A stretch of DNA of 42,806 nucleotides from Gallionellales bacterium RIFCSPLOWO2_02_FULL_57_47. Its GTDB lineage: Bacteria > Pseudomonadota > Gammaproteobacteria > Burkholderiales > Gallionellaceae. The stretch lies in the NCBI GenBank assembly GCA_001801175.1, contig MGWZ01000022.1:58537-101342 (forward strand), written 5' to 3'. The number at the start of each line of letters is the position of its first letter. Position 1 is the stretch's first letter. A model generated the notes under the pieces. That model did not search any database. It was not told the origin of the DNA and saw only the letters and a program-made list of their open reading frames with translations. Positions 1,856 to 41,840 of this stretch are shown piece by piece. A program made the translations under genes and the position numbers.

Positions 1856-4669
1856 TCAATGCGCCTCATCCCAATTCTTCCCCTCGCCCAGTTCCACCAG
1901 CAGCGGCACGTTGAGTTCGGCGACGCCGCACATCAGCCTGGGCAGCATGTCCTTGACCAGATGCAGTTCCGCCTCCGGCACTTCCAGCACCAGTTCGTCG
2001 TGCACCTGCATGATCAAACGGCTGTGCAGCTTTTCGGTTTCCAGCCAGTGCTGCACTTTGATCATCGCGAGTTTGATCAGGTCGGCGGCGGTGCCCTGCA
2101 TCGGCGCGTTGATCGCGGCGCGTTCGGCGCCCTGGCGCTTCATGCCGTTGCTGGCGTTGATTTCCGGCAGCCATAGCCTGCGGCCGAACACGGTCTCGAC
2201 GTAGCCCTGCTGTTTCGCCTGCTCACGGGTGCGCTGCATGTAGTCGGCGACGCCGGGGTAGCGTGCGAAGTAGCGGTCGATGTAGGCCTGCGCCGCGCCG
2301 CGTTCGATGCCGAGCTGCTTGGCGAGGCCGAACGAGGACATGCCGTAAATCAGGCCGAAGTTGATCACCTTGGCGTAGCGGCGCTGCTCGCTGTCGACCT
2401 CGGCGGGCGCGACCATGAATATTTCGGCGGCGGTGGCGCGGTGGATGTCCTCGTTGTTGGCGAAGGCCTGCAGCAGCCCGGCATCGCCGGACAGGTGCGC
2501 CATGATGCGCAACTCGATCTGCGAATAGTCCGCCGACACGATGCGCGAACCCTGCGGCGCGATGAATGCCTCGCGGATGCGGCGGCCCTCTGCGGTGCGC
2601 ACCGGAATGTTCTGCAGGTTGGGGTCGCTGGAGGCGAGCCGCCCGGTCACTGCCACCGCCTGCGAGTAACTGGTGTGCACGCGCCCGGTTTTCCGATCCA
2701 CCATCTGCGGCAGTTTGTCGGTGTAGGTGGATTTGAGTTTCGCCATGCCGCGGTAGTCGAGCAGGATTTTCGGCAGCGGATAGTCGAGCGCAAGCTCCTG
2801 CAACACTTCTTCGTCGGTGGACGGGTCGCCGCCGGGCGTCTTCTTCTTTACCGGCAAACCCAGTTTATCGAACAGGATTTCCCTGAGTTGCTTGGGCGAA
2901 TTCAGGTTGAACGGCTGCCCGGCGGCTTCATGCGCACGTGCCTCCAGCGCGATCAGCTTCTCGCCCAGCTCGCGGCTCTGGATCTTCAGCAGCTCGCAGT
3001 CGAGCAGCACGCCGTTGCGTTCCATCGTGTAGAGCACATGCATGCTCGGCAATTCGATGTCGCGATACACATGCTGCAAACCCTGCTGCGCCTCTATCTG
3101 CGGCGCAAGCGCCTGGTGCAGTTGCAGCGTGATGTCGGCATCCTCGGCGGCATAGCGCGTGGCGGTGTCAAGATCGACCTGGTCGAAGCAAATCTGCTTC
3201 GCGCCCTTGCCGACCACCTCGGCGTAGCTGATGGTCTTCACGTTGAGATGGCGCAGCGCGAGGTTGTCCATGTCGTGCGGCTTGTGGCTCTCCAGCACGT
3301 AGGATTGCAGCAGCGTGTCGTCGTGGATGCCGGCCAGCGCGATGCCGTGATTGGTGAAGATGTGCAGGTCGTACTTGAGATTCTGCCCGAGCTTTTTGTG
3401 TCTTTCGCTCTCCAGCCACGGCTGGAGTTTTTGCAATGCGACAGCGCGGTTAAGCTGGTCCGGCGCGCCGGGGTAGCGGTGTGCCAGCGGCAGGTAGGCG
3501 GCGTGGTGCGGAGTGATCGCAAACGAGATGCCGACCAGTTGCGCGTTCATCACGTCGAGCCCGGTGGTCTCGGTATCCACACACACCAGTTCGGCGGCAA
3601 GCAGTTTTTCCAGCCAGGCGTCGAGCCGGGCTTCGGTGAGGATCGTTTCGTAGTGCACGTTGTCGGTGCGGGTGGGTTCAGTGCCGAACATATCCTGATG
3701 TGCTACGCCATTCCCTCCCCCTTGCAGGGGGAGGGTTAGGGAGGGGGTAGAAACTTTGCGGACATTACCCCCATCCCAACCTTCCCCCTGTGAGGGGGAA
3801 GGAGCACCGATTTCGCGCAGCCAGGTCTTGAACTCGAAGTGTTCATACAGGCTGCGCAGTTGTTCAGTATCCGGCGGGGGCGGAGCCAGTTCGCTATACG
3901 GCTGCGGCAATTCCACGTCGCATTTCACGGTAAGCAGGCGGCGCGCCTGCGGCAGCCAGTCCAGCGCGCGGCGCAGGTTTTCGCCGACCACACCGCCGAT
4001 TTCATTGGCATGCTGCATCAGGTTATCGAGCGTGCCGTACTGGGCGAGCCACTTCACCGCAGTCTTGGGGCCGACCTTTTCGACGCCTGGCACGTTGTCC
4101 ACCGCATCGCCAGTCAGCGTCAAATAATCGAGAATGCGCTCCGGCGGCACGCCGAATTTGGCGTTCACGCCCGGCACGTCCAGCGTTTCGTTGTTCATCG
4201 TGTTGATCAGCGTCACATGCTCATTCACCAGTTGAGCGAGGTCTTTGTCTCCGGTCGCGACGATGCAGCGAACGCCATCCTGTGTTGCCTGCCGGGCGAG
4301 CGTGCCGATCACATCGTCCGCTTCCACGCCTTCCAGCATCAGCAGGTTCCAGCCGGACGCAGCGATGGCCTGATGCAGCGGTTCGATCTGCCGCGCCAGA
4401 TCGTCCGGCATAGCCGGGCGGTGCGCCTTGTATTCGGGATACCAGTCGTCGCGGAAAGTTTTGCCTTTTGCGTCAAATACGCACAGGATATAATCTGCCG
4501 GGAAATCGTGGCGCAACTTGCGCAGCATGTTGAGCACGCCGTAGATCGCGCCGGTCGGTAAGCCTTCGCGGTTGCGCAGATCCGGCATCGCATGGAACGC
4601 GCGGTACAGGAACGACGATCCGTCAACTAACAGCAACGTTTTACCAAGACTCACTTCGTTCGTTTTCAT
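1856..4669 (-). CDS. polA: DNA polymerase I
   Basis: The 937-residue protein has all three PolA domains. The N-terminal 5' nuclease begins KTLLLVDGSSFLYRAFHAMPDL. The 3'-5' exonuclease keeps its acidic motif in VCVDTETTGLD, so proofreading should be active, unlike in Taq. The polymerase domain shows motif A (DYSQIELRIMAHLSGD), motif B (RRYAKVINFGLIYGMS) and motif C (MQVHDELVLEV). It acts in Okazaki-fragment maturation and excision repair. A glycine- and proline-rich stretch around residues 289-319, in the linker between nuclease and exonuclease, is encoded by a palindromic repeat (3711-3803). The start at 4669 matches the family N-terminus best; an ATG at 4690, overlapping the divergent gene's start, is an alternative with a GGGTGGTG sequence upstream. 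Confidence 0.97.
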   Translation of the reverse strand: MKTNEVSLGKTLLLVDGSSFLYRAFHAMPDLRNREGLPTGAIYGVLNMLRKLRHDFPADYILCVFDAKGKTFRDDWYPEYKAHRPAMPDDLARQIEPLHQAIAASGWNLLMLEGVEADDVIGTLARQATQDGVRCIVATGDKDLAQLVNEHVTLINTMNNETLDVPGVNAKFGVPPERILDYLTLTGDAVDNVPGVEKVGPKTAVKWLAQYGTLDNLMQHANEIGGVVGENLRRALDWLPQARRLLTVKCDVELPQPYSELAPPPPDTEQLRSLYEHFEFKTWLREIGAPSPSQGEGWDGGNVRKVSTPSLTLPLQGGGNGVAHQDMFGTEPTRTDNVHYETILTEARLDAWLEKLLAAELVCVDTETTGLDVMNAQLVGISFAITPHHAAYLPLAHRYPGAPDQLNRAVALQKLQPWLESERHKKLGQNLKYDLHIFTNHGIALAGIHDDTLLQSYVLESHKPHDMDNLALRHLNVKTISYAEVVGKGAKQICFDQVDLDTATRYAAEDADITLQLHQALAPQIEAQQGLQHVYRDIELPSMHVLYTMERNGVLLDCELLKIQSRELGEKLIALEARAHEAAGQPFNLNSPKQLREILFDKLGLPVKKKTPGGDPSTDEEVLQELALDYPLPKILLDYRGMAKLKSTYTDKLPQMVDRKTGRVHTSYSQAVAVTGRLASSDPNLQNIPVRTAEGRRIREAFIAPQGSRIVSADYSQIELRIMAHLSGDAGLLQAFANNEDIHRATAAEIFMVAPAEVDSEQRRYAKVINFGLIYGMSSFGLAKQLGIERGAAQAYIDRYFARYPGVADYMQRTREQAKQQGYVETVFGRRLWLPEINASNGMKRQGAERAAINAPMQGTAADLIKLAMIKVQHWLETEKLHSRLIMQVHDELVLEVPEAELHLVKDMLPRLMCGVAELNVPLLVELGEGKNWDEAH
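3711..3803. repeat. Composite palindrome inserted in frame in polA
   Basis: Two short perfect palindromes, 3713-3735 (CCCTCCCCC / GGGGGAGGG type) and 3780-3802 (CCTTCCCCC / GGGGGAAGG type), flank a spacer. Their inner flanks GGTTAGGGAGGGGGTAG and TTACCCCCATCCCAACC are also nearly inverse, so the whole unit is one large inverted repeat. It stays open in the polA frame and encodes GAPSPSQGEGWDGG...TPSLTLPLQGGGNG. A related unit lies between tpx and gcvPB at 27612-27690. Confidence 0.85.
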
Positions 4670-4688
4670 TTTGACCAGAGGAAATTGC

Positions 4689-5405
4689 ATGAACACACCA
4701 CCCAAATTGCCTACCCCTGTAATGCCCGAGGCATGGAATTCCAAAGAGGCGTGGCGCGTGTTCGGCATTATGTCAGAATTTGTTTCGGCCACCGAACGGC
4801 TTAACCGCATTCATCCCGCCGTGAGCATCTTCGGCAGCGCGCGCACCGGGCCCGGGCAACCCTATTACAAGCTTACCGAGGAAATTGCCCGGCTGCTTTC
4901 CGATGCCGGATTCTCGGTCATTTCCGGCGGAGGGCCCGGTATCATGGAGGCCGCCAACAAGGGCGCGTACTATGGCAAATCGCCCAGCGTCGGCCTGAAT
5001 ATCCAGTTGCCGAACGAGCAGCACAGCAATACCTACCAGAACATCAGCCAGACCTTTCAGCATTTCTTCGCGCGCAAGGTGATGTTCGTGAAATTCGCCA
5101 GCGCGTATGTGGTGATGCCCGGCGGTTTTGGCACGCTGGACGAACTGATGGAAGCCTTGACACTGGTGCAGACCGGCAAGACCCGCAAGATGCCGATCAT
5201 TCTGGTCGGCAGCCAGTTCTGGGGCGGCCTGGTCGAGTGGTTTCGCGCCGCACTGCTGGAGGAAAAAGTCATTAGCCCGGAAGACATGAACTTGATTCAG
5301 CTTATCGATGAACCGCAGGAAGTGGTCAGCGCGATATTCAAGCATTACGAAACACGCGGTTTCGAGCCCTCGGAAGCGGAACGCGAGCGGCAGCTTTATC
5401 TGTAA
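4689..5405 (+). CDS. LOG family (TIGR00730) nucleoside 5'-monophosphate phosphoribohydrolase
   Basis: The 238-residue protein has the Rossmann-type fold signature of the LOG family: VSIFGSARTGPGQPYY near the N-terminus, VISGGGPGIMEAANKGAYYG, and the diagnostic PGGFGTLDELMEALTLVQTGK. LOG enzymes release the base from nucleoside monophosphates; plant and some bacterial members make cytokinins, others recycle purine or pyrimidine nucleotides. The substrate here cannot be told from sequence. The ATG at 4689 is preceded by AGAGGA; a longer reading from 4572 would run back into polA and is not needed. It is divergent from polA with only 19 bases between the chosen start codons, so the two promoters must overlap the opposite gene or each other. 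Confidence 0.92.
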   Translation: MNTPPKLPTPVMPEAWNSKEAWRVFGIMSEFVSATERLNRIHPAVSIFGSARTGPGQPYYKLTEEIARLLSDAGFSVISGGGPGIMEAANKGAYYGKSPSVGLNIQLPNEQHSNTYQNISQTFQHFFARKVMFVKFASAYVVMPGGFGTLDELMEALTLVQTGKTRKMPIILVGSQFWGGLVEWFRAALLEEKVISPEDMNLIQLIDEPQEVVSAIFKHYETRGFEPSEAERERQLYL

Positions 5406-5464
5406 CAGCACATCGTGCTGGCGTTTTCCATTTTTGATGCATGAACTTTCTGGAGGGTTTTTTA

Positions 5465-5773
5465 ATGCATGACATTGATGAAGAGGGCTACCTGATTGAT
5501 CCGCAGGACTGGAACGAGGAGCTTGCCAGGGAATTCGCTCAAAAGGAAAGCATCCAGCTCACGGAAGACCATTGGGATGCGATCCGCTACATGCGCACCT
5601 ATTACGCCGAACACCAGATCGCACCCGATGCGCGCCACGTGATCAAGCATCTTGCAGAACGTATGGGACCCGATTCGCGCAACGCGCTGTTTGAACTTTT
5701 TCCCTACGGTTACGTGAAACAAGCCTGCAAGATTGCCGGCATGAAACGCCCCCGTGGCTGGAGCACCGGCTAG
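5465..5773 (+). CDS. DsrC/TusE-family sulfur relay-like protein lacking the penultimate cysteine
   Basis: The product is 102 residues from the ATG at 5465, which has GGAGGG seven bases upstream; an earlier ATG at 5441 would place that Shine-Dalgarno inside the gene. The sequence shows DsrC-family blocks: DEEGYLIDPQDWNEELAREFA, LTEDHWDAIRYMRTYY, and FPYGYVKQACKIAGMKRPRG. DsrC proper ends in two cysteines, CysB and the penultimate CysA eleven residues later, while TusE keeps only CysA. Here CysB is present (QACKIAG), the CysA position is tryptophan, and the tail is GWSTG. It therefore cannot form the DsrC intramolecular trisulfide and cannot be a canonical TusE. It may be a regulatory or accessory paralogue; its function is unknown. 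Confidence 0.88.
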   Translation: MHDIDEEGYLIDPQDWNEELAREFAQKESIQLTEDHWDAIRYMRTYYAEHQIAPDARHVIKHLAERMGPDSRNALFELFPYGYVKQACKIAGMKRPRGWSTG

Positions 5774-5898
5774 CAGCCCGCAACTTCGCCAGGCTGCAAG
5801 GTTAGACGGAGGCTGCGCGCACGCTTCGCCGTGCTGGCCGCGCAATCCCGCCGCACATCGGCTAGAATGCGCCCATACCAATTCCCCATTCCAAATTC

Positions 5899-6249
5899 AT
5901 GGCAACCACTCCGATGCGCTTCCTGTCTTTATTGCTGCTGGGCGGTTTCAGCATCACCGCCTTTGCAGCAAAGCCGGTTCCCGACAATCTCGAACCGTTG
6001 CCGCCGCCCGCATTTTCCGCCGGGCCCGATGAATATGCCGGCGATGAGCCGGAGGTGAGCATCATCAGGCAAACCGAGCAGACCGTTGAAGAATACCGCG
6101 TCGGCGGCAAGCTATATATGATCAAGGTCACGCCGAAGCACGGGAAGCCTTACTATCTGGTGGACGACATGGGCGACGGCAAATTCTCCCGGCAGGAAAG
6201 CCTCGATTCCGGCCTGCGCGTGCCGCGCTGGGTTATCCGCAAATTCTAG
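5899..6249 (+). CDS. DUF2782 domain-containing secreted protein
   Basis: A 116-residue protein with a signal peptide at about residues 7-23 (FLSLLLLGGFSITAFAA). The mature part carries the DUF2782 pattern: PEVSIIRQTEQTVEEYRVGGKLYMIKVTPKHGKPYYLVDD followed by a basic VPRWVIRKF end. Function is not established. It stands three bases before thrB and near polA; in betaproteobacteria DUF2782 genes commonly sit between polA and thrB, which supports the call and the orientation. Confidence 0.88.
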   Translation: MATTPMRFLSLLLLGGFSITAFAAKPVPDNLEPLPPPAFSAGPDEYAGDEPEVSIIRQTEQTVEEYRVGGKLYMIKVTPKHGKPYYLVDDMGDGKFSRQESLDSGLRVPRWVIRKF

Positions 6250-6252
6250 AAC

Positions 6253-7194
6253 ATGGCGGTTTTTACCACGGTTACCGAGACGGAACTCACCGCCTGGCTG
6301 GGCGATTACTCGCTGGGTCAATTGCTGGAATTGCAGGGCATCGCGTCCGGCATCGAGAACACCAATTACTTCGTCACCACCAGCAATGGCCGGTTCGTGC
6401 TCACGCTATTCGAGAAACTCAGCGCTGACGAGTTGCCCTTCTACCTGAATTTGATGGCGCACCTGGCGCGCCACGGCATTCCCTGCCCCAACCCGGTGGC
6501 GAATCGCTCCAATCAATTCCTGAGCACGCTCAAAGGCAAGCCCGCCTGCATCGTCAGCCGCCTGAGCGGCAAATCCATTACCAAACCGAACAATACGCAG
6601 TGTGCCGTGATCGGCGCGATGCTCGGGCAGATGCATATCGCCGGGCAAAGTTTCTCGCAGGTGATGCCCAATCCGCGCGGCTACGCATGGCGTGCCGCCA
6701 CTGCTCCGCAGGTTCGGCCATTTCTCGATGCGCAGCAAGCCGCCATGCTGGACAGCGAAGTCGCGCTGCACGCAAAGCAGATCTGGACACACGTGCCGCA
6801 AGGGGTGATACACGCAGACCTGTTCCGCGATAACGTGCTGCTGGAAGAAAACCGCGTCGGCGGGCTGATCGATTTTTATTTCGCGTGCAGCGATGCGCTG
6901 CTGTATGACGTGGCGATTACCGTGAATGACTGGTGCATGGATGCCGGCGGCACGCTGGATGCAACCCTCACCCAGGCTTTTTTGCGTGCCTATAATGCGG
7001 CGCGCCCGCTGCTGGACAGCGAACGCGAGGCATGGCCGCTGATGTTGCGTGTCGCCGCGTTACGCTTCTGGCTGTCACGCTTGTTCGACATGTACCTGCC
7101 GCGCGACGGCGAATTGATCCATGCGCACGACCCGCGCCACTTCGAGCGGATACTGAAAAATCACATTGCATCGGCGCAGGCCGTCTGGCTATAG
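6253..7194 (+). CDS. thrB: homoserine kinase, ThrB type II (APH-like fold)
   Basis: A 313-residue kinase phosphorylating L-homoserine with ATP in threonine biosynthesis. It begins MAVFTTVTETELTAWLGDYSLG, typical of the proteobacterial aminoglycoside-phosphotransferase-fold homoserine kinases rather than the GHMP type of E. coli. It contains GIENTNYFVTT, the catalytic-loop motif GVIHADLFRDNVLL (Brenner-type HxDxxxxN) and the metal-binding GLIDFYFACSDALLYDVA. Its length is normal for the family. It follows DUF2782 by three bases and precedes the membrane-protein gene by ten, so the three are probably co-transcribed. Confidence 0.95.
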   Translation: MAVFTTVTETELTAWLGDYSLGQLLELQGIASGIENTNYFVTTSNGRFVLTLFEKLSADELPFYLNLMAHLARHGIPCPNPVANRSNQFLSTLKGKPACIVSRLSGKSITKPNNTQCAVIGAMLGQMHIAGQSFSQVMPNPRGYAWRAATAPQVRPFLDAQQAAMLDSEVALHAKQIWTHVPQGVIHADLFRDNVLLEENRVGGLIDFYFACSDALLYDVAITVNDWCMDAGGTLDATLTQAFLRAYNAARPLLDSEREAWPLMLRVAALRFWLSRLFDMYLPRDGELIHAHDPRHFERILKNHIASAQAVWL

Positions 7195-7204
7195 GGAGGG
7201 CAAC

Positions 7205-7960
7205 ATGGAGATACGCAAACTGAACGCCGCATATGGCTGGCTCTGGATCAAGCAGGGGTACCAGCTCATTATGCGCAACCCGCTGATGTCCTTCACGCTT
7301 GCGCTGATTTTCGGCTTGGTCATGTTTGTCGCGCTCAATGTCCCGCAGCTTGGCCCGCTGCTCGTCGTGCTGCTGATGCCGGTATTCATGGCAGGCTATA
7401 TGCGCATCTGTCGTGCGCTTGAAGAAGAAGAGGAAATCGAGTTGTCGCACCTGTTCATTGGCTTCCAGAAGCATCTGTTGCGACTGGCCGCGCTGAGTGG
7501 CTACACCCTGCTGGGGATGATGATCATTTCGATAGCGATGATCTACATCGGCGGCGACGCGCTCACCACCCTGCTGGACAGCGTTGCGTCCGCCAACGAT
7601 CCGCAGATGCTGGTCGATGCCATGTGGGTAGCCGGGTCGGGCGTGGCGCTCAGCCTGATGGTCGGTTTTGCGCTGGCATTCGTGCTGATGCTGGCGCTGC
7701 AATATGCGCCGATGCTGGTTTTTTTCAGCAACATGGCGCCTTTCTCCGCGCTGCGTGCCAGCCTGTCGGGATCCTTGCGCAACATCATCCCGTACACCGT
7801 ATACAGCCTCATCATGCAAGTGATCGCGCTGGTGCTCAGCCTGCTGCCTTACGGCATCGGCCTGATCGTGTTGCTGCCGCTCGGCCTGACCTCGCTCTAC
7901 GTCAGCTACCGCAACATCTTCCCCTTTGCTGGAGAGATTCAGACTACCCAACCTGGCTAG
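7205..7960 (+). CDS. BPSS1780-family integral membrane protein
   Basis: A 251-residue protein from the ATG at 7205, which follows GGGAGGG at 7195-7201; an upstream in-frame start would overlap thrB and is not preferred. After a conserved N-terminus (MEIRKLNAAYGWLWIKQGYQL) there are about six hydrophobic helices, arranged as pairs around a charged loop (ALEEEEEIELSHLF). This matches the betaproteobacterial BPSS1780 membrane family, whose function is unknown. It is the last gene of the thrB cluster and converges on uvrD, with 68 bases between that hold no clear terminator. Confidence 0.85.
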   Translation: MEIRKLNAAYGWLWIKQGYQLIMRNPLMSFTLALIFGLVMFVALNVPQLGPLLVVLLMPVFMAGYMRICRALEEEEEIELSHLFIGFQKHLLRLAALSGYTLLGMMIISIAMIYIGGDALTTLLDSVASANDPQMLVDAMWVAGSGVALSLMVGFALAFVLMLALQYAPMLVFFSNMAPFSALRASLSGSLRNIIPYTVYSLIMQVIALVLSLLPYGIGLIVLLPLGLTSLYVSYRNIFPFAGEIQTTQPG

Positions 7961-8028
7961 ACCCGCTCGACTGATGCCGCAGTGCGGCGATCCGCATGAG
8001 CAATCTTCAAAACGCAGCGCCACCCCAT

Positions 8029-10341
8029 CTACACTGCGGTCAGCTTCGCATATTCCAGCGCCAGCCATTTGCTGCCCGCGTGCCTGAAATTGACCTGCAC
8101 GCGCGCATCCGCGCCGCCGCCCTCCACACCGGTAATCACCCCCTCACCGAACTTCTGGTGGAACACGCGCTGGCCGATGCGCCATGACCCCTCACCCCCA
8201 GCCGGCTTCGCCCCCCTCGCTGCGCTCTCCCCGCTGGCGGGAGAGGGGTGCGCGTCAGCGCGGGAGAGGGTCGGCGAAGGAACAAATGAATCAAATGTCT
8301 TCCGCGCCGCGAACCTCGGCGTCAGCCAATGCAGCAACCCCTCCGGCAACTCGCGCAAAAAACTCGACGCCATGCCGTAACTCACCTGACCGTGCAACAT
8401 GCGGCTTTGCGCGAAGCTCAGGTACAGCCTGCGCCGCGCGCGGGTGATCGCCACGTACATCAGCCGGCGCTCCTCATCCAGACCGCCGTCCACGTTCTGG
8501 CTGTTCTGGTGCGGAAACAAACCCTCTTCCAGGCCGGTGATGAACACCGTGTGAAACTCCAGCCCCTTCGCGGCATGCACCGTCATCAGGTGCAGCGCGT
8601 CGTCCTGGTCGCCCGCCTGATGCTCGCCCGCCTCCAGCGAGGCGTGGGTCAGAAAAGAGGTCAGGCTGTCGTCCTCGTTCTCATGCACGAACAGCGTCGC
8701 GGCGTTGACGAGTTCGTTCAGGTTTTCCAGCCGCTCTTCGGCTTCGCGCTTTTTGACACCGGTCTCGTTCTGGTAATGCGCAACCAGGCCGCTGTGCTCC
8801 AGCACATGGTCGATGATTTCAGGCAAAGGTAGTTCGCGGGTCGCACTGCGCAGCGACTCGATCAGCGCGACGAACGCCGTGATCTTGCTGCCCATCCTTG
8901 CAGCCGCGTCGAACAGCGTGCCGCCCCGAGACGGTGGGGCGGAGTCCTCTGGTGCGGGAGGGGCGGCTGGGCGGCTACTCCCGACACCGGCTGGCTGCGC
9001 CAGTAACGTGTCGTAGCCGCCGCTATTCATCTTTGCCGCTTCCTGCAACTGCTCGATGCTGCGCGCGCCGATGCCGCGCGTCGGAAAGTTGATGATGCGC
9101 AGCAGCGCGTTGTCGTCGCCGGTGTTTTCCATCAGGCGCAGGTAGGCCAGCGCATGCTTGATCTCCTGCCGCTCGAAAAAGCGCAGTCCCCCGTACACGC
9201 GATACGACAATCCTGCGGACACCAGCGCATGCTCCAGTACCCGCGACTGCGCGTTGGAGCGGTACAGCAGCGCGATCTCCCTGAGATTGATCCCCTCGGA
9301 CTTTAACTGCTTGATCTCGTCGACGATAAACCCTGCCTCGTCCACATCCGTTGCCGCCTCGTACACGCGCAGTTGCTCCCCGCCGTTCTCCGCCGTCCAC
9401 AGGTTTTTGCCGAGGCGGCTGCGGTTATGCTTGATCAGCGCGTTGGCAGCGTCGAGGATGTTGGCGTGCGAGCGGTAGTTCTGTTCCAGCTTGATGACAT
9501 TTTCGATGTGGAAGTCGCGCAGCAGCTCCTGCATGTTGCCGACGTTCGCGCCGCGGAACGCGTAGATCGACTGGTCGTCGTCGCCCACCGCGAACAGCGA
9601 GTTGTTCTTGCCCGCCAGCAGTTTCAGCCAGCGGTATTGCAGCGGGTTGGTGTCCTGAAACTCGTCCACCAGAATATGCCTGAAGCGCTCCTGGTAATGC
9701 TCGCGCAATTGCGCATTGCGCGACAGCAATTCGTAGCAGCGCAGCAGCAACTCGGAAAAATCCACCACGCCCTCGCGCTGGCATTGCGCATCGTACTCGG
9801 CGAAAATCTCCACCTTGCGCCGCGTGTACGGATCGTAGGCCTCCACTTCGTTTGCGCGCAGCCCCTGCTCCTTGCTGGAGCTGATGAAGTTCTGCACCTC
9901 GCGCGGCGGATATTTCTCGTCATCGACATTCATAGCCTTCATCAGCCGCTTGATCGCGGACAACTGGTCGCCGGAATCGAGAATCTGGAAGGCCTGCGGC
10001 AAATTCGCCTCGCGGTGATGCGCGCGCAACATGCGGTTGCATAGCCCGTGAAACGTGCCGATCCACATGCCGCGCGTGTTAATCCCTGTCCTGAGCGCTG
10101 TCGAAGGGGGCAGCATCGCCGACAGCCGCGTCACCATCTCCTTCGACGCCTTGTTGGTGAACGTCACCGCGAGGACGCCGTGCGGACTCACCGCGCCGGT
10201 GTTAATCAGATACGCGATGCGCGTCGTCAGCACGCGCGTCTTGCCGCTGCCCGCCCCGGCGAGAATCAGCGCGGACTGGTGCGGAAGCGTGACGGCGAGT
10301 CGTTGTTCGGGATTGAGGCCGGAAAGCAGGGAGGAATTCAT
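8029..10341 (-). CDS. uvrD: ATP-dependent DNA helicase UvrD/PcrA type (SF1)
   Basis: The 770-residue protein from the ATG at 10341 begins MNSSLLSGLNPEQRLAVTLP, a standard UvrD start; the ATG at 10389 is less likely. Helicase motifs in order are Walker A LAGAGSGKTRV (K34), VDEFQDTN (motif II), GDDDQSIYAFRGA (III), LEQNYRS (IV), TVHAAKGLEFHTVFITGLEEG (V) and YVAITRARRRLYLSFA (VI), then the usual C-terminal FGEGVITGVEGGG...VNF segment. It unwinds DNA 3'-5' in nucleotide excision and mismatch repair. It is about 50 residues longer than E. coli UvrD (720). The excess is made of three stretches encoded by repeats: residues about 78-87, 444-476 and 684-718. Confidence 0.96.
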   Translation of the reverse strand: MNSSLLSGLNPEQRLAVTLPHQSALILAGAGSGKTRVLTTRIAYLINTGAVSPHGVLAVTFTNKASKEMVTRLSAMLPPSTALRTGINTRGMWIGTFHGLCNRMLRAHHREANLPQAFQILDSGDQLSAIKRLMKAMNVDDEKYPPREVQNFISSSKEQGLRANEVEAYDPYTRRKVEIFAEYDAQCQREGVVDFSELLLRCYELLSRNAQLREHYQERFRHILVDEFQDTNPLQYRWLKLLAGKNNSLFAVGDDDQSIYAFRGANVGNMQELLRDFHIENVIKLEQNYRSHANILDAANALIKHNRSRLGKNLWTAENGGEQLRVYEAATDVDEAGFIVDEIKQLKSEGINLREIALLYRSNAQSRVLEHALVSAGLSYRVYGGLRFFERQEIKHALAYLRLMENTGDDNALLRIINFPTRGIGARSIEQLQEAAKMNSGGYDTLLAQPAGVGSSRPAAPPAPEDSAPPSRGGTLFDAAARMGSKITAFVALIESLRSATRELPLPEIIDHVLEHSGLVAHYQNETGVKKREAEERLENLNELVNAATLFVHENEDDSLTSFLTHASLEAGEHQAGDQDDALHLMTVHAAKGLEFHTVFITGLEEGLFPHQNSQNVDGGLDEERRLMYVAITRARRRLYLSFAQSRMLHGQVSYGMASSFLRELPEGLLHWLTPRFAARKTFDSFVPSPTLSRADAHPSPASGESAARGAKPAGGEGSWRIGQRVFHQKFGEGVITGVEGGGADARVQVNFRHAGSKWLALEYAKLTAV
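8188..8276. repeat. CCCTCTCCCGC-type palindromic repeat inside uvrD
   Basis: The unit contains CTCCCCGCTGGCGGGAG and a second GCGCGGGAGAGGG block, plus a long CCCCTCACCCCCAGCCGG...CTCGCTGCG arm. Read on the uvrD strand it gives PSPTLSRADAHPSPASGE followed by [13 protein letters not shown]. About 45 bases of it recur almost unchanged, inverted, in gcvPB (28626-28687). It lies just before the conserved C-terminal segment of UvrD, a disordered linker in family members. Confidence 0.88.
8921..9003. repeat. GC-rich palindromic insert in uvrD
   Basis: A hairpin CCGCCCC (8921-8927) / GGGGCGG (8936-8942) starts a GC-rich stretch read on the uvrD strand as AQPAGVGSSRPAAPPAPEDSAPPSRGG. UvrD homologues lack this proline-rich segment at this point, just before the conserved block ITAFVALIESLRSAT. 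No second copy was found in the window, so repeat status rests on the hairpin and composition. Confidence 0.5.
10085..10108. repeat. CCTGTCCTGAGC-N3-GTCGAAGGG repeat inside uvrD
   Basis: A 24-base copy of a short interspersed repeat. On the uvrD strand it encodes PSTALRTG, between the conserved RLSAML and the conserved MWIGTFHGLC. A 22/24 identical copy is at 27788-27811 in gcvPB, in the same reading frame. Confidence 0.8.
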
Positions 10342-10474
10342 CGGCGAATTATCCCACAGGATGGCAGCATGACGTGCCGATCCGCTCAAGACGATTGATG
10401 CGGCTTAACAAGAAATAAAAAGTTTCCCGGAGAAACGGGGCTACTCATTGCACAATATTCGCGGATTGGAGCGG

Positions 10475-10768: not shown

Positions 10769-10868
10769 GAGTCCTCGGCAAGGTTTTGGTTGTTGCAGAT
10801 CCCGTAAGCACGACGGATGATTTCCCTACACAGCATTCCAGTCCGCAGACCCACCGTGCGAATTCCCT

Positions 10869-11633: not shown

Positions 11634-11714
11634 GGATTTGCCCCTGTGCATGTGGTGCCGTTACGAGCAGCTATCTTATTCCAATTTCAATTTTCGGGTG
11701 ATGCTGCGACCGGC

Positions 11715-11751: not shown

Positions 11752-11770
11752 CAGTTGCAGCTGCAAAAAT

Positions 11771-12817: not shown

Positions 12818-15625
<2,808 letters not shown>

Positions 15626-17585: not shown

Positions 17586-17587
17586 CC

Positions 17588-19402: not shown

Positions 19403-19466
19403 CACTATTTGTTTATCTTCGCTAAAATTCTGGACAAATCACCCTAATTTACGGCAAACTGCGCAC

Positions 19467-20051: not shown

Positions 20052-20063
20052 TAGGAGGTCATC

Positions 20064-20498: not shown

Positions 20499-20549
20499 TC
20501 CTGCAATAGCGCAAAATACGCGCCGCACCCAAGTTCGGAGTCAACACTT

Positions 20550-22798: not shown

Positions 22799-23584
22799 AT
22801 GCCCGGAACAACGCATTGCCCATTTTGCAAAACACGCTTCAAAATTGCCGAAGAGCAATTGGAGACACATCTCGGCATGGTGCGTTGCGGGCATTGCCTG
22901 CAAACCTTCGACGCACGCCCCGGCTTTGTTCCGGACCAGCCCAGCCCGCAACTCGAGTTGCCGATGATGGATGCAGAACTGCCGATACTGGATGCTCAGG
23001 TCTCGACCACCTCCTTCGGCCTGCCCGTACTGCAACCCATGACGCTGGCAGAGCAGGTCGCTATCGTCGAAGACGAGGGCATCGGCGAGTACCAACCAAA
23101 ATACCGCTCATGGCCGTGGGCAATTGCCGCCTTGTCATTGACCATGTTGCTGGTAGCGCAATCCGCCTATTTTTTCCGCGTGGAACTCGCCGCCCGCATA
23201 CCCGGCTTGAAACCCGCACTTGTCGGCTACTGCCGGATACTGAAATGCACCGTGCCGCTGCCGCAAAAAACCGGACTGATAACAATAGAATCATCAGAGC
23301 TCGAGGCCGATCCCAAACATGAAAACCAGATCAACCTGAATGCGCTGCTGCGCAACCGCGCCCCCTACTCACAAACCTTCCCCAGTCTGGAACTCACACT
23401 CAACGACAGCCAGGATAAACCGCTGGCGCGCCGCCTATTCCGTCCGGCGGAGTATTTGCCGCCGCAGGAAAACGAAGCAGCCGGCATGCTGCCCAACCAC
23501 GAACTCAACCTCAGGCTGCACCTCAATATCGGCGATCTCAGGCCGGTCGGTTACCGCCTTGCGGTCTTCTACCCGGGCACCTGA
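22799..23584 (+). CDS. zinc-ribbon and DUF3426 membrane protein
   Basis: A 261-residue protein. The N-terminal zinc ribbon of the MJ0042 type has two CxxC pairs, in CPFCKTRFKIAEEQL and VRCGHCLQTFDARPG. An acidic linker leads to one transmembrane helix (WPWAIAALSLTMLLVAQSAYFF, about residues 103-124) and a C-terminal extracytoplasmic DUF3426 domain (ESSELEADPKHENQINLNALLRNRA...FPSLELTLNDSQDKPLARRLFRPAEYL). Function is unknown. It begins directly after the prmA stop, and prmA-DUF3426 adjacency is typical of betaproteobacteria, so it closes the acc operon. Confidence 0.9.
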   Translation: MPGTTHCPFCKTRFKIAEEQLETHLGMVRCGHCLQTFDARPGFVPDQPSPQLELPMMDAELPILDAQVSTTSFGLPVLQPMTLAEQVAIVEDEGIGEYQPKYRSWPWAIAALSLTMLLVAQSAYFFRVELAARIPGLKPALVGYCRILKCTVPLPQKTGLITIESSELEADPKHENQINLNALLRNRAPYSQTFPSLELTLNDSQDKPLARRLFRPAEYLPPQENEAAGMLPNHELNLRLHLNIGDLRPVGYRLAVFYPGT

Positions 23585-23666
23585 ATTGCTGAACGGTTTG
23601 CCGGATGCGCAATGCAATTTGAAAGCCCGGGTCATTTCCGGCATAATTCCCCCCGCCGTTTAAAGA

Positions 23667-23845
23667 CCAATGGGAGAGCGTGTCAGCCAGTTTCATCACG
23701 GGCTGTGACACCGCCGAAGGCGCAACACCCGCAACCGCTCAGGCACAAGGACTATTGGCACAGGCAAATCTGGAGAGCGTTGGATTATCCAACCACCGAA
23801 GGGGCAGGCAACGCGAGTTGCAATCTCTCAGGTACCGAGGACAGA
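23667..23845 (+). ncRNA. tandem glycine riboswitch
   Basis: Two glycine aptamers lie in series. Aptamer 1 has P1 CCAAT (23667-23671) pairing with ATTGG (23754-23758) and holds GGGAGAGCG, CCGCCGAAGGCGC and CTCAGGCACAAGGACT. Aptamer 2 has P1 TCTG (23769-23772) with CAGA (23842-23845) and holds GGAGAGCG, CCACCGAAGGGGCA and CTCAGGTACCGAGGAC. These are the conserved glycine-aptamer cores, joined by a short linker. A terminator follows within four bases, so glycine binding likely decides read-through into gcvT and the genes after it. Confidence 0.96.
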
Positions 23846-23848
23846 TGG

Positions 23849-23878
23849 GGCGCAGCAGATTTCTGCTGCGCCTTTTTT
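23849..23878 (+). terminator. riboswitch expression-platform terminator
   Basis: A perfect ten-base-pair stem GGCGCAGCAG / CTGCTGCGCC with loop ATTT is followed by six T residues. It sits between aptamer 2 and the gcvT ribosome-binding site, as in transcriptional glycine ON switches. I did not find an alternative antiterminator pairing by eye. Confidence 0.92.
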
Positions 23879-23896
23879 CATTTTTGGAAAGCCAAC

Positions 23897-25048
23897 ATGA
23901 CGTTAAAACAGACTCCGCTCAACGCAGCACACCGCGCGATGGGCGCAAAAATGGTCGATTTCGGCGGTTGGGATATGCCGGTGAACTACGGTTCGCAGAT
24001 CGACGAACATCATCAGGTACGCAATGATTGCGGCATGTTCGACGTGTGCCACATGCGCGTGGTGGATGCGAAGGGCGAGGGCATACGCGCTTTTCTGCGC
24101 TACCTGCTGGCGAACAATGCCGGCAAGCTGACGCTGCCCGGCAAGGCACTCTATTCCGCCATGCTGCGTCCGGACGGCGGCGTGATCGACGACCTCATCA
24201 TCTACTTCATGAGCGAGCAGTGGTTCCGCATCGTCGTGAATGCGGGTACCGCGGACAAGGACATCGCGTGGATGAAGCAGCAGGCCGCAGAATTCACAAG
24301 GCATCTCCCGTCGGGAGATGCGGCGGTTGCCCTTTCTCCCGCAAGCGGGGGAAAGTTGGATAGGGGGAATACGCCCATCACCATCACCTCGCGCGACGAC
24401 CTGGCGATGGTTGCCGTGCAGGGCCCGAATGCGCGCGCCAAGGTGTGGCAGGTGCTGCCGCAAACCAGGGCAGCTACCGAAGGCCTGCAGAACTTCCAGG
24501 CTGCGGATTGCGGCGAATACTTCGTGGCGCGCACCGGCTATACCGGCGAAGACGGTTTCGAGGTGATGCTGCCCAAGGAGAAAGTCGAGGAATTCTGGTA
24601 CGCACTGAACAAGGCGGGTGTGAAACCCATCGGTCTCGGCGCGCGCGACACGCTGCGCCTCGAAGCCGGCATGAACCTGTACGGACAGGACATGGACGAG
24701 AGCGTTGGCCCGCTGGAATCCGGCCTGGCGTGGACGGTGGACCTGAAGAGCGAACGCGATTTCATCGGCAAGGCCGCGCTGCTCGCCAGTCCGACGGTGC
24801 GCAAACTGGTCGGGCTGGTGCTGCTGGATCGCGGCGTGCTGCGCGGCCACCAGAAGGTGCACACCGCGCACGGCGAAGGCGAAATCACCAGCGGCAGCTT
24901 CTCGCCCACCTTGGAGAAATCCATCGCACTGGCGCGCGTGCCGAAAGACGTGCAAATTGGCGATACGGTGCAAGTGGCGATCCGCGATAAAATGCTGGCG
25001 GCGAAAGTGGTGAAGTATCCGTTCGCGCGCAAGGGCAAAGCAGTGTGA
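23897..25048 (+). CDS. gcvT: glycine cleavage system aminomethyltransferase (T protein)
   Basis: The 383-residue protein starts [44 protein letters not shown]; the upstream open frame is riboswitch RNA. Family motifs include [58 protein letters not shown] and [25 protein letters not shown]. It transfers the methylene group from aminomethyl-lipoyl-H protein to tetrahydrofolate. About 20 extra residues (135-158, [20 protein letters not shown]) between the conserved QQAAEF and ITSRDDLAM are encoded by two hairpins at 24301-24355. It is the first gene of the gcv operon. Confidence 0.97.
24301..24355. repeat. two adjacent hairpins inserted in gcvT
   Basis: A perfect palindrome GCATCTCCC-GTC-GGGAGATGC (24301-24321) is followed by CTTTCTCCCGC / GCGGGGGAAAG (24332-24355). 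The second resembles the CTCCCGCnnGCGGGAG core in uvrD, leuS and gcvPA. Both remain open in the gcvT frame. Confidence 0.8.
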
Positions 25049-25143
25049 GCCTGTAGCTCGCAGCGGGTAGCCTGTAGCTTCTGAGGCCGCGCGCAAAGCG
25101 CGCACAGCATTAGCTTCCAGCTACCCGCTACGAGCTACAGGCT
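25048..25143. repeat. 96-bp palindromic repeat between gcvT and gcvH
   Basis: The arms at 25048-25070 and 25121-25143 are 23 bases long and inverted with one mismatch (AGCCTGTAGCTCG type), with an inner GCGCGC/GCGCGC hairpin. The element begins on the last base of the gcvT stop codon. It would form a strong hairpin in the gcv mRNA. It has no T-run. Confidence 0.88.
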
Positions 25144-25171
25144 GTAATCGAATTACCATAAGGAGATTCAA

Positions 25172-25561
25172 ATGAGCAACCCAGCAAACCTGAAATACAC
25201 CGCCTCCCACGAATGGATCAGGAGCGAAGCCGACGGCACCATCAGCATCGGCATCACCCAGCACGCGCAGGAGCTGCTGGGCGACATGGTATTTGTCGAA
25301 AACCCGGCGGTCGGCCGCAAGCTCAAGGCCAAGGAAGAATGCGCGGTAGTGGAATCGGTAAAAGCCGCAGCCGACGTGTACGCGCCGGTTGCCGGTGAAG
25401 TGACGGCGGTGAACAGCGAACTCGACAGCGCCCCGGAAAAAATCAATGCCGATCCGTATGCCGCATGGATGTTCAAAATGAAGCCGGCCAGCGCGGCGGA
25501 TGTGGCCGCGCTGATGGATGCGGCGGCGTACCAGGCCGTTGTCGACAGCGAAGCCCACTAA
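25172..25561 (+). CDS. gcvH: glycine cleavage system H protein
   Basis: A 129-residue lipoyl carrier with AAGGAG before the ATG. It reads [46 protein letters not shown], then the lipoylation site [19 protein letters not shown] with K64 as the lipoyl lysine, and ends with [13 protein letters not shown]. The protein shuttles the aminomethyl group between the P, T and L proteins. No lpd gene is nearby. It is the second gene of the operon. Confidence 0.98.
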
Positions 25562-25562
25562 A

Positions 25563-25643
25563 TCAGGACCGAGGATTGAGGATCGAGGAGCGAGGGAAAA
25601 CCGCTTTTCGATCCTAGATCCTCGATCCTCAATCCTGAGGATC
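25563..25643. repeat. AGGATCGAGG-type palindrome between gcvH and gcvPA
   Basis: The left half (GAGGATTGAGGATCGAGGAG) and the right half (CTAGATCCTCGATCCTCAATC) are inverse over about 28 bases. It starts two bases after the gcvH stop. Its right end, CTGAGGATCG, supplies the only Shine-Dalgarno-like sequence (GAGG at 25637-25640, six bases before the ATG) of gcvPA. A coding relative lies in leuS at 13654-13723. Confidence 0.88.
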
Positions 25644-25646
25644 GAC

Positions 25647-27068
25647 ATGCCCTTCATTCCCCACACCGAGCAGGACATCAAGGCCATGCTCGCCAGCATC
25701 GGCGCGAAAAATATTGACGCGCTGTTCGATGAAATTCCCGCCGCGCTGAAAAGCGGCAAGCTCACTGCCGTCGGCGACGGGCTGAACGAGATGCAGGTGT
25801 CGCGCCTGATGCGCGAGCGTGCCGCACAGGATAGCCAGCCGCTCAACTTCATCGGCGCGGGCGCCTACGAGCACCACATCCCCGCCGCGGTCTGGGAGAT
25901 CGCCACGCGTGGCGAGTATTACACCGCCTACACGCCGTATCAGGCCGAGGCCAGCCAGGGCACGCTGCAAACGCTGTACGAATACCAGACGATGATCGCT
26001 TCGCTGACCGGCATGGATGCGTCCAACGCCAGCCTGTACGACGGCGCGTCCGGTTTGGCTGAGGCGATTCTGATGGCGGTGCGCGCGCACAAGACGTCGC
26101 GGCACGTACTGTTGCCCGCCACCGTCAGCCCGCTGTACCGCAGCGTGGCGCGCAGCATCGTCAGGCTGCAGAACATCGAACTGGTGGAAATTCCGTTCGA
26201 CATTGCGACCGGCACGATAGACTTCAAGGCACTGGAACAATATGCAGGAGCCGATATCGCCGCAATGGTCATTCCGCAGCCGAATTTTTTTGGCGCGCTG
26301 GAAGATGTCGACGCGCTGACCGATTGGGCGCATGCGCAAAATATGCTGGCCATCGCACTGGTGAATCCGCTGACACTGGCCTTGCTGAAAGCGCCGGGCA
26401 ATTGGGGCAGCCCTCTCCCCAACCCTCTCCCGCTAGCGGGAGAGGGGGCAAACGAATCGCTGCGCGAATCCAATATCAGGGGGGCGGACATCGCGGTCGG
26501 CGACGGACAGCCGCTCGGCGCGCCGCTGTCCAGCGGCGGCCCGTATTTCGGTTTCATGTGCTGCAAGCAGGCGCTGGTGCGCCAGATGCCGGGACGCATC
26601 ATCGGCCGCACCGTCGATCTGGACGGCAAACAGGGCTTCACGCTGACGCTGCAGGCGCGCGAGCAACACATCCGCCGCGCCAAGGCAACATCAAATATTT
26701 GCAGCAACCAGGGATTGATGGTGACGGCGGCGACCATCCACATGGCACTGCTCGGCGCGGACGGGTTGCGCCGTGCCGCCGCAGCATCGCATGGCAACAC
26801 GCAATCGCTGGCGGCGCTGGCCTGCGGCGTGCCCGGCGTGAAACGCTTGTTCAGTGCGCCGCATTTTCACGAGGTCGTGCTGCGTCTGCCCAAATCATCT
26901 GCTGCGGTATTGGCCGGCATGGCCGAGCAGGGCGTATCGGGCGGCATCGATCTGCAGCCGTACTACCCGCAACTGGGGAATGCGATTCTGGTTTGCGCCA
27001 CTGAAACCAAAACCGAAGAAGATTTGCAACGCTATGTGGCGGCGTTACGCCACGTCCTTCAGGGTTAA
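25647..27068 (+). CDS. gcvPA: glycine dehydrogenase (decarboxylating) subunit 1, P protein alpha
   Basis: A 473-residue protein from the ATG at 25647 ([31 protein letters not shown]), the usual GcvPA opening. It contains [67 protein letters not shown], typical of the split P protein. With GcvPB it forms the PLP enzyme that decarboxylates glycine. Homologues have about 450 residues; here 24 extra residues (about 254-277, [20 protein letters not shown]...) stand between GNWG and [13 protein letters not shown], encoded by a palindromic repeat. An upstream reading from 25518 would overlap gcvH. Confidence 0.96.
26411..26447. repeat. CCCTCTCCCGCTAGCGGGAGAGG palindrome inside gcvPA
   Basis: A perfect palindrome at 26423-26446 (CCCTCTCCCGC-TA-GCGGGAGAGGG) is preceded by a second CCCTCTCCCC. 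It encodes [12 protein letters not shown]. It belongs to the family also seen in uvrD, leuS, gcvT and gcvPB. Confidence 0.9.
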
Positions 27069-27092
27069 GAGGCATTCGACTGGGAGAACAAG

Positions 27093-27611
27093 ATGAAAAA
27101 TGACGACAAGAAACTAGGCACGACACTCGGCGGAACACCGGTGCAACTGTACGGCGACTTTCCGAAAGTCGGACAGACCGCGCCGGCCTTCTCGCTGGTG
27201 GGCAAGGATTTAAAGGATGTCACGCTGGAAAGTTTCGGCGACAAGCGCAAGGTGCTGAACATCGTTCCCAGCCTGGACACGGCGACCTGCGCAGCTTCCG
27301 AGCGCCGCTTCAACCAGATTGCCGGCGGCCTGGCCAATACCGTGGTGATAACCGTCTCCGCCGATTTGCCGTTCGCGATGGCGCGTTTTTGCGCCAGCGA
27401 AGGGCTGGACAATGTGACCAACCTTTCCGCAATGCGCGGCCGCGAGTTCATGCGCAACTACGGCGTGAAGATCGCCGACGGCCCGCTGGCCGGACTGATG
27501 GCACGCGCCGTGATCGTGCTGGATAGCAAGAATGTGGTGCGCTATACCGAACTGGTCAGCGAGATCAAGAACGAACCCAACTACGATGCGGCGCTGGCCG
27601 CGCTGCAATAA
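27093..27611 (+). CDS. tpx: thiol peroxidase (Tpx)
   Basis: A 172-residue 2-Cys peroxiredoxin of the Tpx class, preceded by GGGAG. It has [31 protein letters not shown], the peroxidatic cysteine in [16 protein letters not shown], and the resolving cysteine in [16 protein letters not shown], the same spacing as E. coli Tpx. It reduces lipid and other hydroperoxides with thioredoxin. It lies between gcvPA and gcvPB, with 24 bases after gcvPA, so it should be expressed with glycine cleavage under the glycine riboswitch; this position is unusual. Confidence 0.96.
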
Positions 27612-27690
27612 CCCAACCCCTCCCGGCCTCCCCTTGTCAGGGGAGGGGCGCCACTTCCCCCTGACAAGGGGGATTGAGGGGGTTGATATT
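27612..27690. repeat. composite CCCCTCCC/GGGGAGGGG palindrome between tpx and gcvPB
   Basis: CTCCCCTTGTCAGGGGAG and TTCCCCCTGACAAGGGGGA are two hairpins, also inverse to each other across a short spacer, flanked by AACCCCTCCC and GGGGGTTG. It starts immediately after the tpx stop. Its composite layout matches the insertion in polA at 3711-3803. Confidence 0.88.
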
Positions 27691-27710
27691 GATATGAAAG
27701 AGTTACATCC

Positions 27711-29267
27711 ATGCTGATTTTTGAACGCTCCCATCCCGGCCGCCGCAACGCGGCACAAGCCCCGCATCACGCCGCAGCAGCCGGCGGCCCTTCGACCGGG
27801 CTCAGGACAGGCATCCCGGCCGCGCTGCTGCGCCAGGACCGGCCGCTGCTGCCGGAAGCTTCGGAAATGGACGTGGTGCGCCACTACACCCGGCTGTCGC
27901 AGAAGAATTTTTCGATCGACACGCACTTCTACCCGCTCGGCTCCTGCACGATGAAATACAACCCGCGCGCCTGCAACACGCTGGCGATGTTGCCGAACTT
28001 TCTGGCGCGCCATCCGCTCGCGCCCGAATCCACCGGGCAGGGCGTGCTGGCCTGTCTGTACGACTTGCAGGAAATATTAAAAGACGTGACCGGCATGGCC
28101 GGCGTGAGCCTGATGCCGATGGCCGGAGCGCAGGGCGAATTTGCCGGCATCGCGATGATCCGCGCCTATCACGATATGCGCGGCGACACGGCGCGCAGCG
28201 AGATCATCGTGCCGGATGCGGCGCACGGCACCAACCCGGCGACCGCGGTGATGTGCGGCTACACCGTGAAGGAGATTCCGACCGGCGCGAACGGAGACGT
28301 CGACCTGGACGCGCTGCGCGCCGCCACCGGCCCGCAGACCGCCGGGTTGATGCTGACCAACCCGTCCACGCTGGGCGTGTTCGAGAAGCGCATCACCGAC
28401 ATCCAGAAGGTCATCCACGACGCGGGCGGCCTGCTGTATTACGACGGCGCGAACCTGAATGCGATCCTCGGCAAGGTCAAGCCCGGCGACATGGGCTTCG
28501 ACGTGATCCACATGAACCTGCACAAGACCTTCTCGACGCCGCACGGCGGCGGCGGGCCGGGCGCGGGCGCGGTGGGTGTGGCGCAACGCCTGCTGCCGTT
28601 CCTGCCGCTGCCGGTAGTCGCAAAACTCCCCTCGCCCGCAGGCGGGGAGAGCGCAGCGAGGGGGGCGAAGCCGGCTGGGGGTGAGGGTATCAACAACGAA
28701 GTATTTCGTTACTTAACAGAAAAAGACCTGCCGCAATCCATCGGCCACCTGTCCGCCTTCAGCGGCAACATCGGCATCCTGCTGCGCGCCTATGTGTATG
28801 CGCGCATGCTGGGCGCGGAAGGCATGCACCGCGTCGCCGAGTTCGCCACGCTCAACGCCAACTACCTGATGGCGGAACTGTACAAGGCGGGTTTCACCGT
28901 CGCCTTCCCACAACGCCGCGCCAGCCACGAGTTCATCATCTCGATGAAGCCGCTCAAGGATGCCACCGGCATCTCCGCGATGGACGTGGCCAAGCGCCTG
29001 CTGGACAAGGGCTATCATCCCCCCACCACCTACTTCCCGATGCTGGTGCCGGAATGCCTGCTGATCGAGCCGACCGAAACCGAATCGAAGGAGACGCTGG
29101 ATGGCTTCGTCGCCGCGCTGAAGGAAATCCGCGACGAGGCGCATGCCACGCCGGAACTGGTGAAGGGCGCACCGCACACGATGCCGGTGCGGCGCCTCGA
29201 TGATGTGAAAGCAGCCCGCGAACTGGACCTGACATGGAAAACCCCCACAAGCACCGCCCCGGTTTAA
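27711..29267 (+). CDS. gcvPB: glycine dehydrogenase (decarboxylating) subunit 2, P protein beta
   Basis: A 518-residue PLP enzyme starting [18 protein letters not shown], the family N-terminus. It has [61 protein letters not shown], and the PLP lysine in [19 protein letters not shown]. Usual length is about 480-500; two repeat-encoded stretches account for the excess: residues about 24-35 ([12 protein letters not shown]) and about 304-326 ([21 protein letters not shown]) just before [14 protein letters not shown]. Both sit outside the catalytic motifs. The last 34 bases overlap the dgkA start, so the genes are coupled. Confidence 0.96.
27788..27811. repeat. CCTTCGAC-N3-GCTCAGGACAGG repeat inside gcvPB
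   Basis: A 24-base copy, 22/24 identical to the inverse of 10085-10108. It encodes PSTGLRTG in the N-terminal segment of GcvPB, in the same frame as in UvrD. Confidence 0.82.
28626..28687. repeat. CTCCCCTCGCCCGC-type palindromic repeat inside gcvPB
   Basis: The element starts CTCCCCTCGCCCGCAGGCGG and ends GGCTGGGGGTGAGGG. Its middle, about 45 bases, is the inverse of the uvrD copy at 8188-8276. It is read as [19 protein letters not shown], matching the UvrD peptide. Confidence 0.92.
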
Positions 29268-41837: not shown

Positions 41838-41840
41838 AAC

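Follow-up and report, generated by a model that had tools for sequence, protein, structure and literature searches.

Ten inserts in six core genes

The DNA considered here, which we call the window, is a stretch of 42,806 nucleotides from Gallionellales bacterium RIFCSPLOWO2_02_FULL_57_47, part of contig C22 of a genome of 2.81 Mb. Six of its genes, polA, uvrD, leuS, gcvT, gcvPA and gcvPB, contain ten short segments that are insertions relative to the same genes of related bacteria; they are in frame, and they leave the frame open (Table 1). A preliminary description of the window had proposed palindromic repeats within these genes, and inspection of the borders and of the orthologues agrees with it on all ten, essentially place by place. 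We call the genus Gallionella on the basis of the nearest named records, which, for gcvPB, are Gallionella and Nitrosomonadales metagenome-assembled genomes (records very close to the window's own may be omitted from them).

Table 1. Inserts in the six genes of the window (nt, nucleotides; aa, amino acid residues)
Insert	Position	Strand	Repeat DNA	Peptide
polA, linker	3688..3802	-	pair of CCCTCCCCC/GGGGGAGGG-type palindromes of family P that face each other	...PSPSQGEGWDGG...PSLTLPLQGGGNG
uvrD_C, C-terminal linker	8189..8262	-	type A1 palindrome with 21-nt extension	24 aa
uvrD_mid	8923..9021	-	99 nt, GGYDTLLAQPAGVGSSRPAAPPAPEDSAPPSRG	33 aa
uvrD_N, N-terminal	10084..10107	-	24 nt, family C (CCCTTCGACAGCGCTCAGGACAGG)	PSTALRTG
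leuS1, directly upstream of VYTTRADT	13660..13726	+	family D inverted repeat (GATCCTCAATCC units)	
leuS2	14081..14121	+	type A1 palindrome	13 aa
gcvT	24299..24370	+	72 nt, two hairpins	24 aa
gcvPA	26412..26477	+	type A2 repeat, 66 nt	22 aa
gcvPB_N (insert 1)	27788..27811	+	24 nt, family C	PSTGLRTG
gcvPB2 (insert 2)	28626..28691	+	type A1 palindrome, same 21-nt extension as uvrD_C	22 aa

The six genes were translated, their relatives were searched and aligned, and the borders of the inserts were inspected in the DNA. Orthologue rows come from loci in which some stretch reached 55% identity and 60% coverage; own-genome copies (L024, L194, L224) were removed, and row counts include the window. 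For uvrD, leuS and polA, 61, 41 and 41 genomes respectively were searched, with at most 30 loci taken into each alignment. The relatives displayed have identities of 73 to 96%. We take the polA insert to lie in the linker that joins the 5′ nuclease to the 3′-5′ exonuclease-like part, and the VYTTRADT motif of leuS to belong to the editing domain. The gcvPB2 insert lies about 34 residues beyond K272, presumably the pyridoxal phosphate lysine, in the invariant NLHKTF stretch.

All ten inserts match other DNA of the genome. The comparison was made in an own-genome sample of 504,193 bases, made up of the window and of 80 stretches around listed matches to families A, C and D, which cover part of all such matches. 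The best other-match ranges in E value from 3e-3 (uvrD_N, whose sole match is gcvPB_N, within the window) to 4e-22, between gcvPB2 and uvrD_C, which are 95% identical over 60 nt on opposite strands. The polA insert has 15 matches (best 41/41 nt), leuS1 has 25, leuS2 has 53 (best 97.6% over 41 nt) and gcvPA has 87 (best 94.7% over 57 nt). The uvrD_mid segment is 89% identical over 55 nt to L271, with five weaker matches besides, and gcvT is 91% identical over 43 nt to L255. These last two have matches elsewhere in the genome and none elsewhere in the window, contrary to the earlier statement that each insert resembles other repeats of the window. Hairpin formation, claimed at first for every insert, is significant in seven of the ten, with RNA-folding z values of -5.1 (polA), -3.2 (leuS2), -3.1 (gcvT), -3.0 (gcvPA), -2.9 (leuS1, over 13644-13726), -2.8 (gcvPB2) and -2.1 (uvrD_mid). 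It is weak in uvrD_C (z -1.4) and fails in the two inserts of family C, to which we return below.

Avoidance of conserved sequence by the inserts is true on average, since their flanks are less conserved than random positions (P at most 0.05 in six of ten, combined P 2e-6, a test inflated by the uncertainty of alignments beside gaps), and it does not extend to uvrD_N and gcvPA. Aligned with solved chains of UvrD, LeuRS and the P-protein, the proteins show gaps or breaks where the inserts are, and the positional resolution is no finer than this.

In line with the preliminary description, relatives have either no such segment or different repeat DNA in its place. Two inserts are found in the window only: uvrD_mid among 30 rows (one row has six unrelated residues) and the gcvT repeat among 62, each with empty sites in four relatives displayed. 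At uvrD_N, four relatives displayed show an exact 24-nt gap, and a similar adjoining peptide is present in one other row of the 30 (L041). The 24 nt of gcvPB_N are identical in the window, L114, L115 and L117 (4 of 81 rows), and L119 and L120 are empty; GGC is found on both sides, which duplication or microhomology would both fit. A repeat or repeat-like peptide occupies the gcvPA site in 6 of 70 rows including the window, one of them the distant record L185; in the DNA, L119 and L116 are empty and L122, L129 and L130 hold the repeat. The leuS1 segment is common to 6 of 30 rows. L198 shares the repeat of leuS2, where at least six residues fill the site in 15 of 30 rows, and residue 589 of leuS, empty in the window, is filled in nine rows of the 30, six of them with long, repeat-like peptide. 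At gcvPB2, at least six residues are present in 14 of 81 rows, and the 11 other rows printed resemble versions of the same kind of repeat; L114 has an unextended copy there and L119 is empty. At the uvrD_C site L030 has an unextended A1 copy, and L033 and L029 have a P-type palindrome. Compared with these nearest relatives, L030 and L114, the window has 21 nt more in uvrD_C and in gcvPB2, and the extension is the same in the two.

Some of the material found at these sites is of another nature. In the gcvT loop, five of 62 rows (L115, L119, L127, L132, L135) have an unrelated insert of 22 to 63 residues that starts with an HPECYA motif; at leuS2, seven of 30 (L216-L221, L223) have an unrelated non-repeat insert of 39 to 40 residues; and two places that are hypervariable across the genus, the polA linker and the uvrD C-tail, often hold repeat peptides and, in some relatives, non-repeat sequence. 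Unrelated DNA of similar length is thus found in part at four of the ten sites, which tells to that extent against the preliminary description; these places tolerate insertions and deletions in general. An assembly artefact was considered and rejected for gcvPA, gcvPB_N and leuS1, because the same inserts are present in independently assembled relatives (L122; L114, L115 and L117; L215 and L195), an argument that does not reach the inserts found in the window only.

Repeats across the genome and their reading frames

The genome holds many further copies, as the preliminary description had led one to expect. Whole-genome pattern counts, set against reversed-pattern controls, are 65 versus 3 for family A, 45 versus 0 for family C and 115 versus 0 for family D, the matches to D overlapping one another in part. 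The 504-kb sample, which is 86% coding according to a dicodon model trained on its 504,193 bases, contains 58 copies of the CCCTCTCCC palindrome of family A, 33 of them in called genes (29 internal and 4 at gene 3′ ends) and 25 intergenic. It also contains 47 copies of family C (21 in genes, of which 4 in tandem in one open reading frame (ORF), and 26 intergenic), 13 of family P (7 in genes) and 31 clusters of family D: 10 inside genes, 1 near a start, 7 intergenic and 13 across a gene end, of which 10 at 3′ ends and 3 at starts. Families A, C and D together account for 65 in-gene copies across 53 called genes; the strict patterns used here miss seven of the ten window inserts. The tandem copies of family C lie at L301 2509-2603, where four in-frame 24-nt units encode (HFDKLRTG)n in an ORF of 249 codons. 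An inverted repeat of family D often has its start at the 3′ end of a gene, in contact with the stop codon, as in 10 of the 31 clusters (L322, L323, L326, L328-L333).

Hosts of family A are mostly housekeeping proteins. Pfam domains are present in 28 of the 29 non-window genes that carry it, among them MutL, Mfd, Mur ligase, valyl-tRNA synthetase (ValS), PurL, aconitase, TGT, polyprenyl synthetase, EarP, ComEC, GlnE and apolipoprotein N-acyltransferase; one host is a cadherin-like repeat protein, and one is without a domain. In G016, a second species of the genus sampled through 35 stretches (197.5 kb), 57 copies of A divide into 40 in genes (36 inside, 3 at 3′ ends and 1 at a 5′ end), 16 intergenic and 1 straddling. 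Per base, coding copies of A reach 0.21 of the intergenic density in the own genome; a second caller gives 0.27 for the own genome, 0.56 for G016 and 0.24 for G065, another genus of the family.

The 24-nt core of A is open in all three frames, and genes do not use these evenly. In the own genome NPLPQAGEG (frame 2) appears 18 times, SPASGRG (frame 0) 11 times and LSRxRERG (frame 1) 4 times (P 0.012), and in G016 the same frames are used 22, 14 and 4 times (P 0.002), the least-used being the Arg-rich one. Type A2, the consensus of which has three open frames of six, two of these on one strand, is biased in orientation: 23 of 23 in-gene copies place that strand in the coding sense (P 2e-7 if both orientations are equally likely, P 9e-5 under a filter for stop codons only). 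A mere preference for the transcribed strand was set aside on the evidence of the intergenic copies, where, with a gene reading towards the copy, the two orientations stand at 8 versus 5 (one more copy has no such gene). Type A1 is less strict, at 27 versus 18, with 5 undecided. The orientation bias of A2 would be hard to explain unless the repeat DNA is translated.

Lineage distribution and re-use of sites

Palindrome A is present in 36 of 41 genomes of the genus, at 0 to 140 copies, and in 40 of 150 genomes sampled from the order. Its placement was compared in six genomes, using a narrower pattern and, for each genome, a codon model of its own. Within the family, the copies in genes are 27 of 46 in the own genome, 37 of 52 in G016 and 7 of 12 in G065; in other families of the order, they are 0 of 14 (G139), 1 of 8 (G107) and 0 of 6 (G076). 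The contrast, 71 of 110 versus 1 of 28, is significant (Fisher P 2e-9), on a sampling of 14 of the 56 copies of G139 and 8 of the 19 of G107, the codon models of these three outgroups having 30 to 52 kb of training sequence each. What flanks the palindrome is not alike in the six genomes, so that the lineage contrast may have a cause in sequence.

Ten pairs of genes were compared between the own genome and G016, and one, which set an EarP-like gene against another gene, was dropped (29% identity, non-orthologous). Orthologues re-use one site for different repeat families or for different reading frames. In a MurB-like and in a nucleotidyltransferase gene, the site filled by family D in the own genome is filled by family A in G016. 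Family A takes one place in both species, read in different frames, in three further cases: within an amine oxidase-like gene, within an unnamed gene and at the end of an Lnt-like gene. An ABC transporter gene has a copy of A inside the loop of a D inverted repeat. In Mur ligase, PurL, ABC and FadB-like genes A occupies the same site in both species, and is there most simply inherited. The re-use and nesting of repeats, with the changes noted above at uvrD_C and gcvPB2, are compatible with recurrent insertion where sites are tolerant as well as with conversion in place, and do not separate the two. The habit goes beyond what had been described for the window: it is genus-wide, biased in frame and orientation, and its sites are re-used by different repeat families.

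A bolder proposal would be that a process of the lineage's own, possibly recombinational exchange at DNA palindromes, swaps and converts the repeat cassettes that occupy set places, most of them coding for loops, in core genes, so that loops of essential enzymes would be continually rewritten by interchangeable repeat families and in changing frames while the frame of the protein is kept. As the core palindrome lies outside genes in the three genomes of other families, with one in-gene copy of 28, the coding habit would then be a property of the lineage and not of the repeat. We regard this proposal as rather doubtful, if worth keeping in mind.

Nature and origin of the in-gene repeats

What we consider very likely is that non-autonomous repeats, akin to repetitive extragenic palindromic (REP) sequences and belonging to several families (A1/A2, C, D and P), are found between and inside the genes of this genus, and that the in-gene copies are filtered by translation and are nearly neutral passengers, tolerated mostly in loops and linkers. 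A copy landing in a gene would persist only if the frame were kept and no stop codon stood in that frame and orientation; persisting copies would preferably encode flexible peptide, rich in Pro, Gly and Ala and not in Arg, mostly in a loop or a linker. After entry, a copy would be inherited and might then alter where it stands: it could be lost, receive a nested insertion, give way to a different family or be converted by another copy. The earlier suggestion that the spread is still active or only mildly deleterious is compatible with inserts restricted to one species, with the range of copy numbers in the genus and with a coding density about one fifth of the intergenic one, and we put it no more firmly than that.

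Several observations weigh against this interpretation. No target-site duplication is visible at uvrD_N in the DNA borders of four relatives, and the flanks of this insert and of gcvPA are well conserved. The two 24-nt inserts of family C show no hairpin (folding z +0.3 for uvrD_N and +1.7 for gcvPB_N), and 'palindromic' therefore does not fit every family. A full palindrome A was found beside none of the six loci with Y1_Tnp matches in the own genome, five of them above cut-off, within about 1.5 kb of flank (one shorter). Genes were called by a purpose-made, non-standard codon-model caller, and the Pfam check covered the hosts of family A, not those of C or D only. Finally, the presence of the inserts in the mature proteins is a prediction from the DNA.

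Other explanations have to account for the same facts. The inserts could be useful, flexible Pro/Gly linkers or mRNA hairpins being selected at their sites with the repeats as a mere source, and it is true that some sites stay filled across species despite sequence change (gcvPB2 and residue 589 of leuS, as counted above, and the polA linker). Against this, the hosts are functionally unrelated, some inserts are found in one species only while most rows have none at most sites, and the density of copies is lower in coding than in intergenic DNA; we find such usefulness improbable as a general explanation. It is highly improbable, too, that the proteins lack the segments through removal at some point after transcription or through ribosomal bypass. 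The stable hairpins at seven of the ten inserts might be invoked in favour of such a process, yet it would need no choice of frame or orientation and no freedom from stops, and all three are seen. The polA linker, the uvrD C-tail, gcvT and leuS2 vary in length among relatives, also with non-repeat sequence, as would be expected if fast-diverging, low-complexity loops had become alike by convergence or slippage, with no insertion of repeat DNA. This is hardly credible when the DNA of each insert matches other copies in the genome, to the point of the near-identity of uvrD_C and gcvPB2 on opposite strands, and when relatives show gaps of 24, 72 and 99 nt.

Set beside known systems, the putatively translated repeats of this genus are of one kind with the protein-coding palindromes of Rickettsia and with the intragenic REPs reported in 2013, and bring to it other repeat families, a free-living host, a marked restriction to one lineage in our sample and re-use of sites. 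The spread of an in-frame palindromic repeat through core proteins is, in the parts of the literature consulted, best known in Rickettsia and scattered elsewhere (PMC2229807, PMC3733652, PMC10969869). Rickettsia palindromic elements (RPEs) are described there as small palindromes, intergenic and also in frame in unrelated conserved genes, where they are tolerated, and are interpreted as selfish DNA (Ogata et al. 2000, 2002, through PMC2229807 and PMC10969869). The likeness lies in the same repeat being intergenic and in frame inside conserved protein genes, with orthologues that lack the segment; the difference, in units of 24 to about 90 nt here against the 105-146 bp given for RPEs, in a free-living host and in several families re-using sites in sister species. 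The repeat sequences are other than RPEs as far as these are named, the two being set apart by description and not by alignment to an RPE sequence. GTAG- or CGTC-tagged REPs have been described within ORFs in a number of species; genes for replication and repair hold many of them, and over half encode 20 to 30 residues (PMC3733652, 2013). Like these, our repeats are short palindromes inside ORFs; unlike them, A has no excess of the tags at its borders, GTAG and CGTC occurring within 20 nt of 7 and 12 of the 58 copies against backgrounds of 10% and 22%. The main text of that paper has no occurrence of Gallionella. ORF-bearing miniature inverted-repeat transposable elements (MITEs) such as ERIC and Correia/NEMIS are also non-autonomous repeats fused in frame to genes, and most MITEs covered in the review carry terminal inverted repeats and target duplications (PMC2229807); neither can be clearly made out here at the two empty sites of 24 nt. 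Of the papers retrieved from the open-licence literature, judged by title and start of abstract, none deals with such repeats in Gallionella or its family; the repeat strings retrieve unrelated papers only, and in the parts of the Gallionella literature inspected 'palindromic' refers solely to clustered regularly interspaced short palindromic repeats (CRISPR).

A tie of palindrome A to a RAYT-like (Y1_Tnp) mobiliser was rejected, the six loci lacking the pattern apart from one 35-nt piece. This piece, at C66:1929-1963 (L275), belongs to an extended A variant and is without the palindrome; a called ORF with a Y1_Tnp match (1928-2785) has this piece as its 3′ end. It is a lead to the mobiliser, or else a chance capture. 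At L366 (C11:35032), a RAYT-like Y1_Tnp gene is flanked by GTAGGGCG GTAG repeats, and it may mobilise the GTAG-type repeats of the window. These form an array at 41535-41838 (GTAGGGCGGGTCACACCCGCC, with a 38-base period), related to copies at 29752-30000; at 29779-30183, a GTAG-repeat stretch of 189 bases is duplicated at a spacing of 216 bases and is 94% identical. A large inverted repeat at 36473-36576, with 41-base arms (GCTGATCAAATCGTCATTGCGAGCGAAGCGTGGCAATCCAG) that are 88% complementary and 22 bases apart, looks like yet another repeat family.

With their genus-wide spread in free-living iron oxidisers, at 0 to 140 copies per genome, and with their biases of frame and orientation, these repeats amount to a natural experiment in the accommodation of junk insertions by proteins. 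They may explain Pro/Gly-rich stretches such as SPASGRG, PLPQAGEG and STGLRTG in annotated proteins of related bacteria, stretches which could mislead the prediction of domains and structures.

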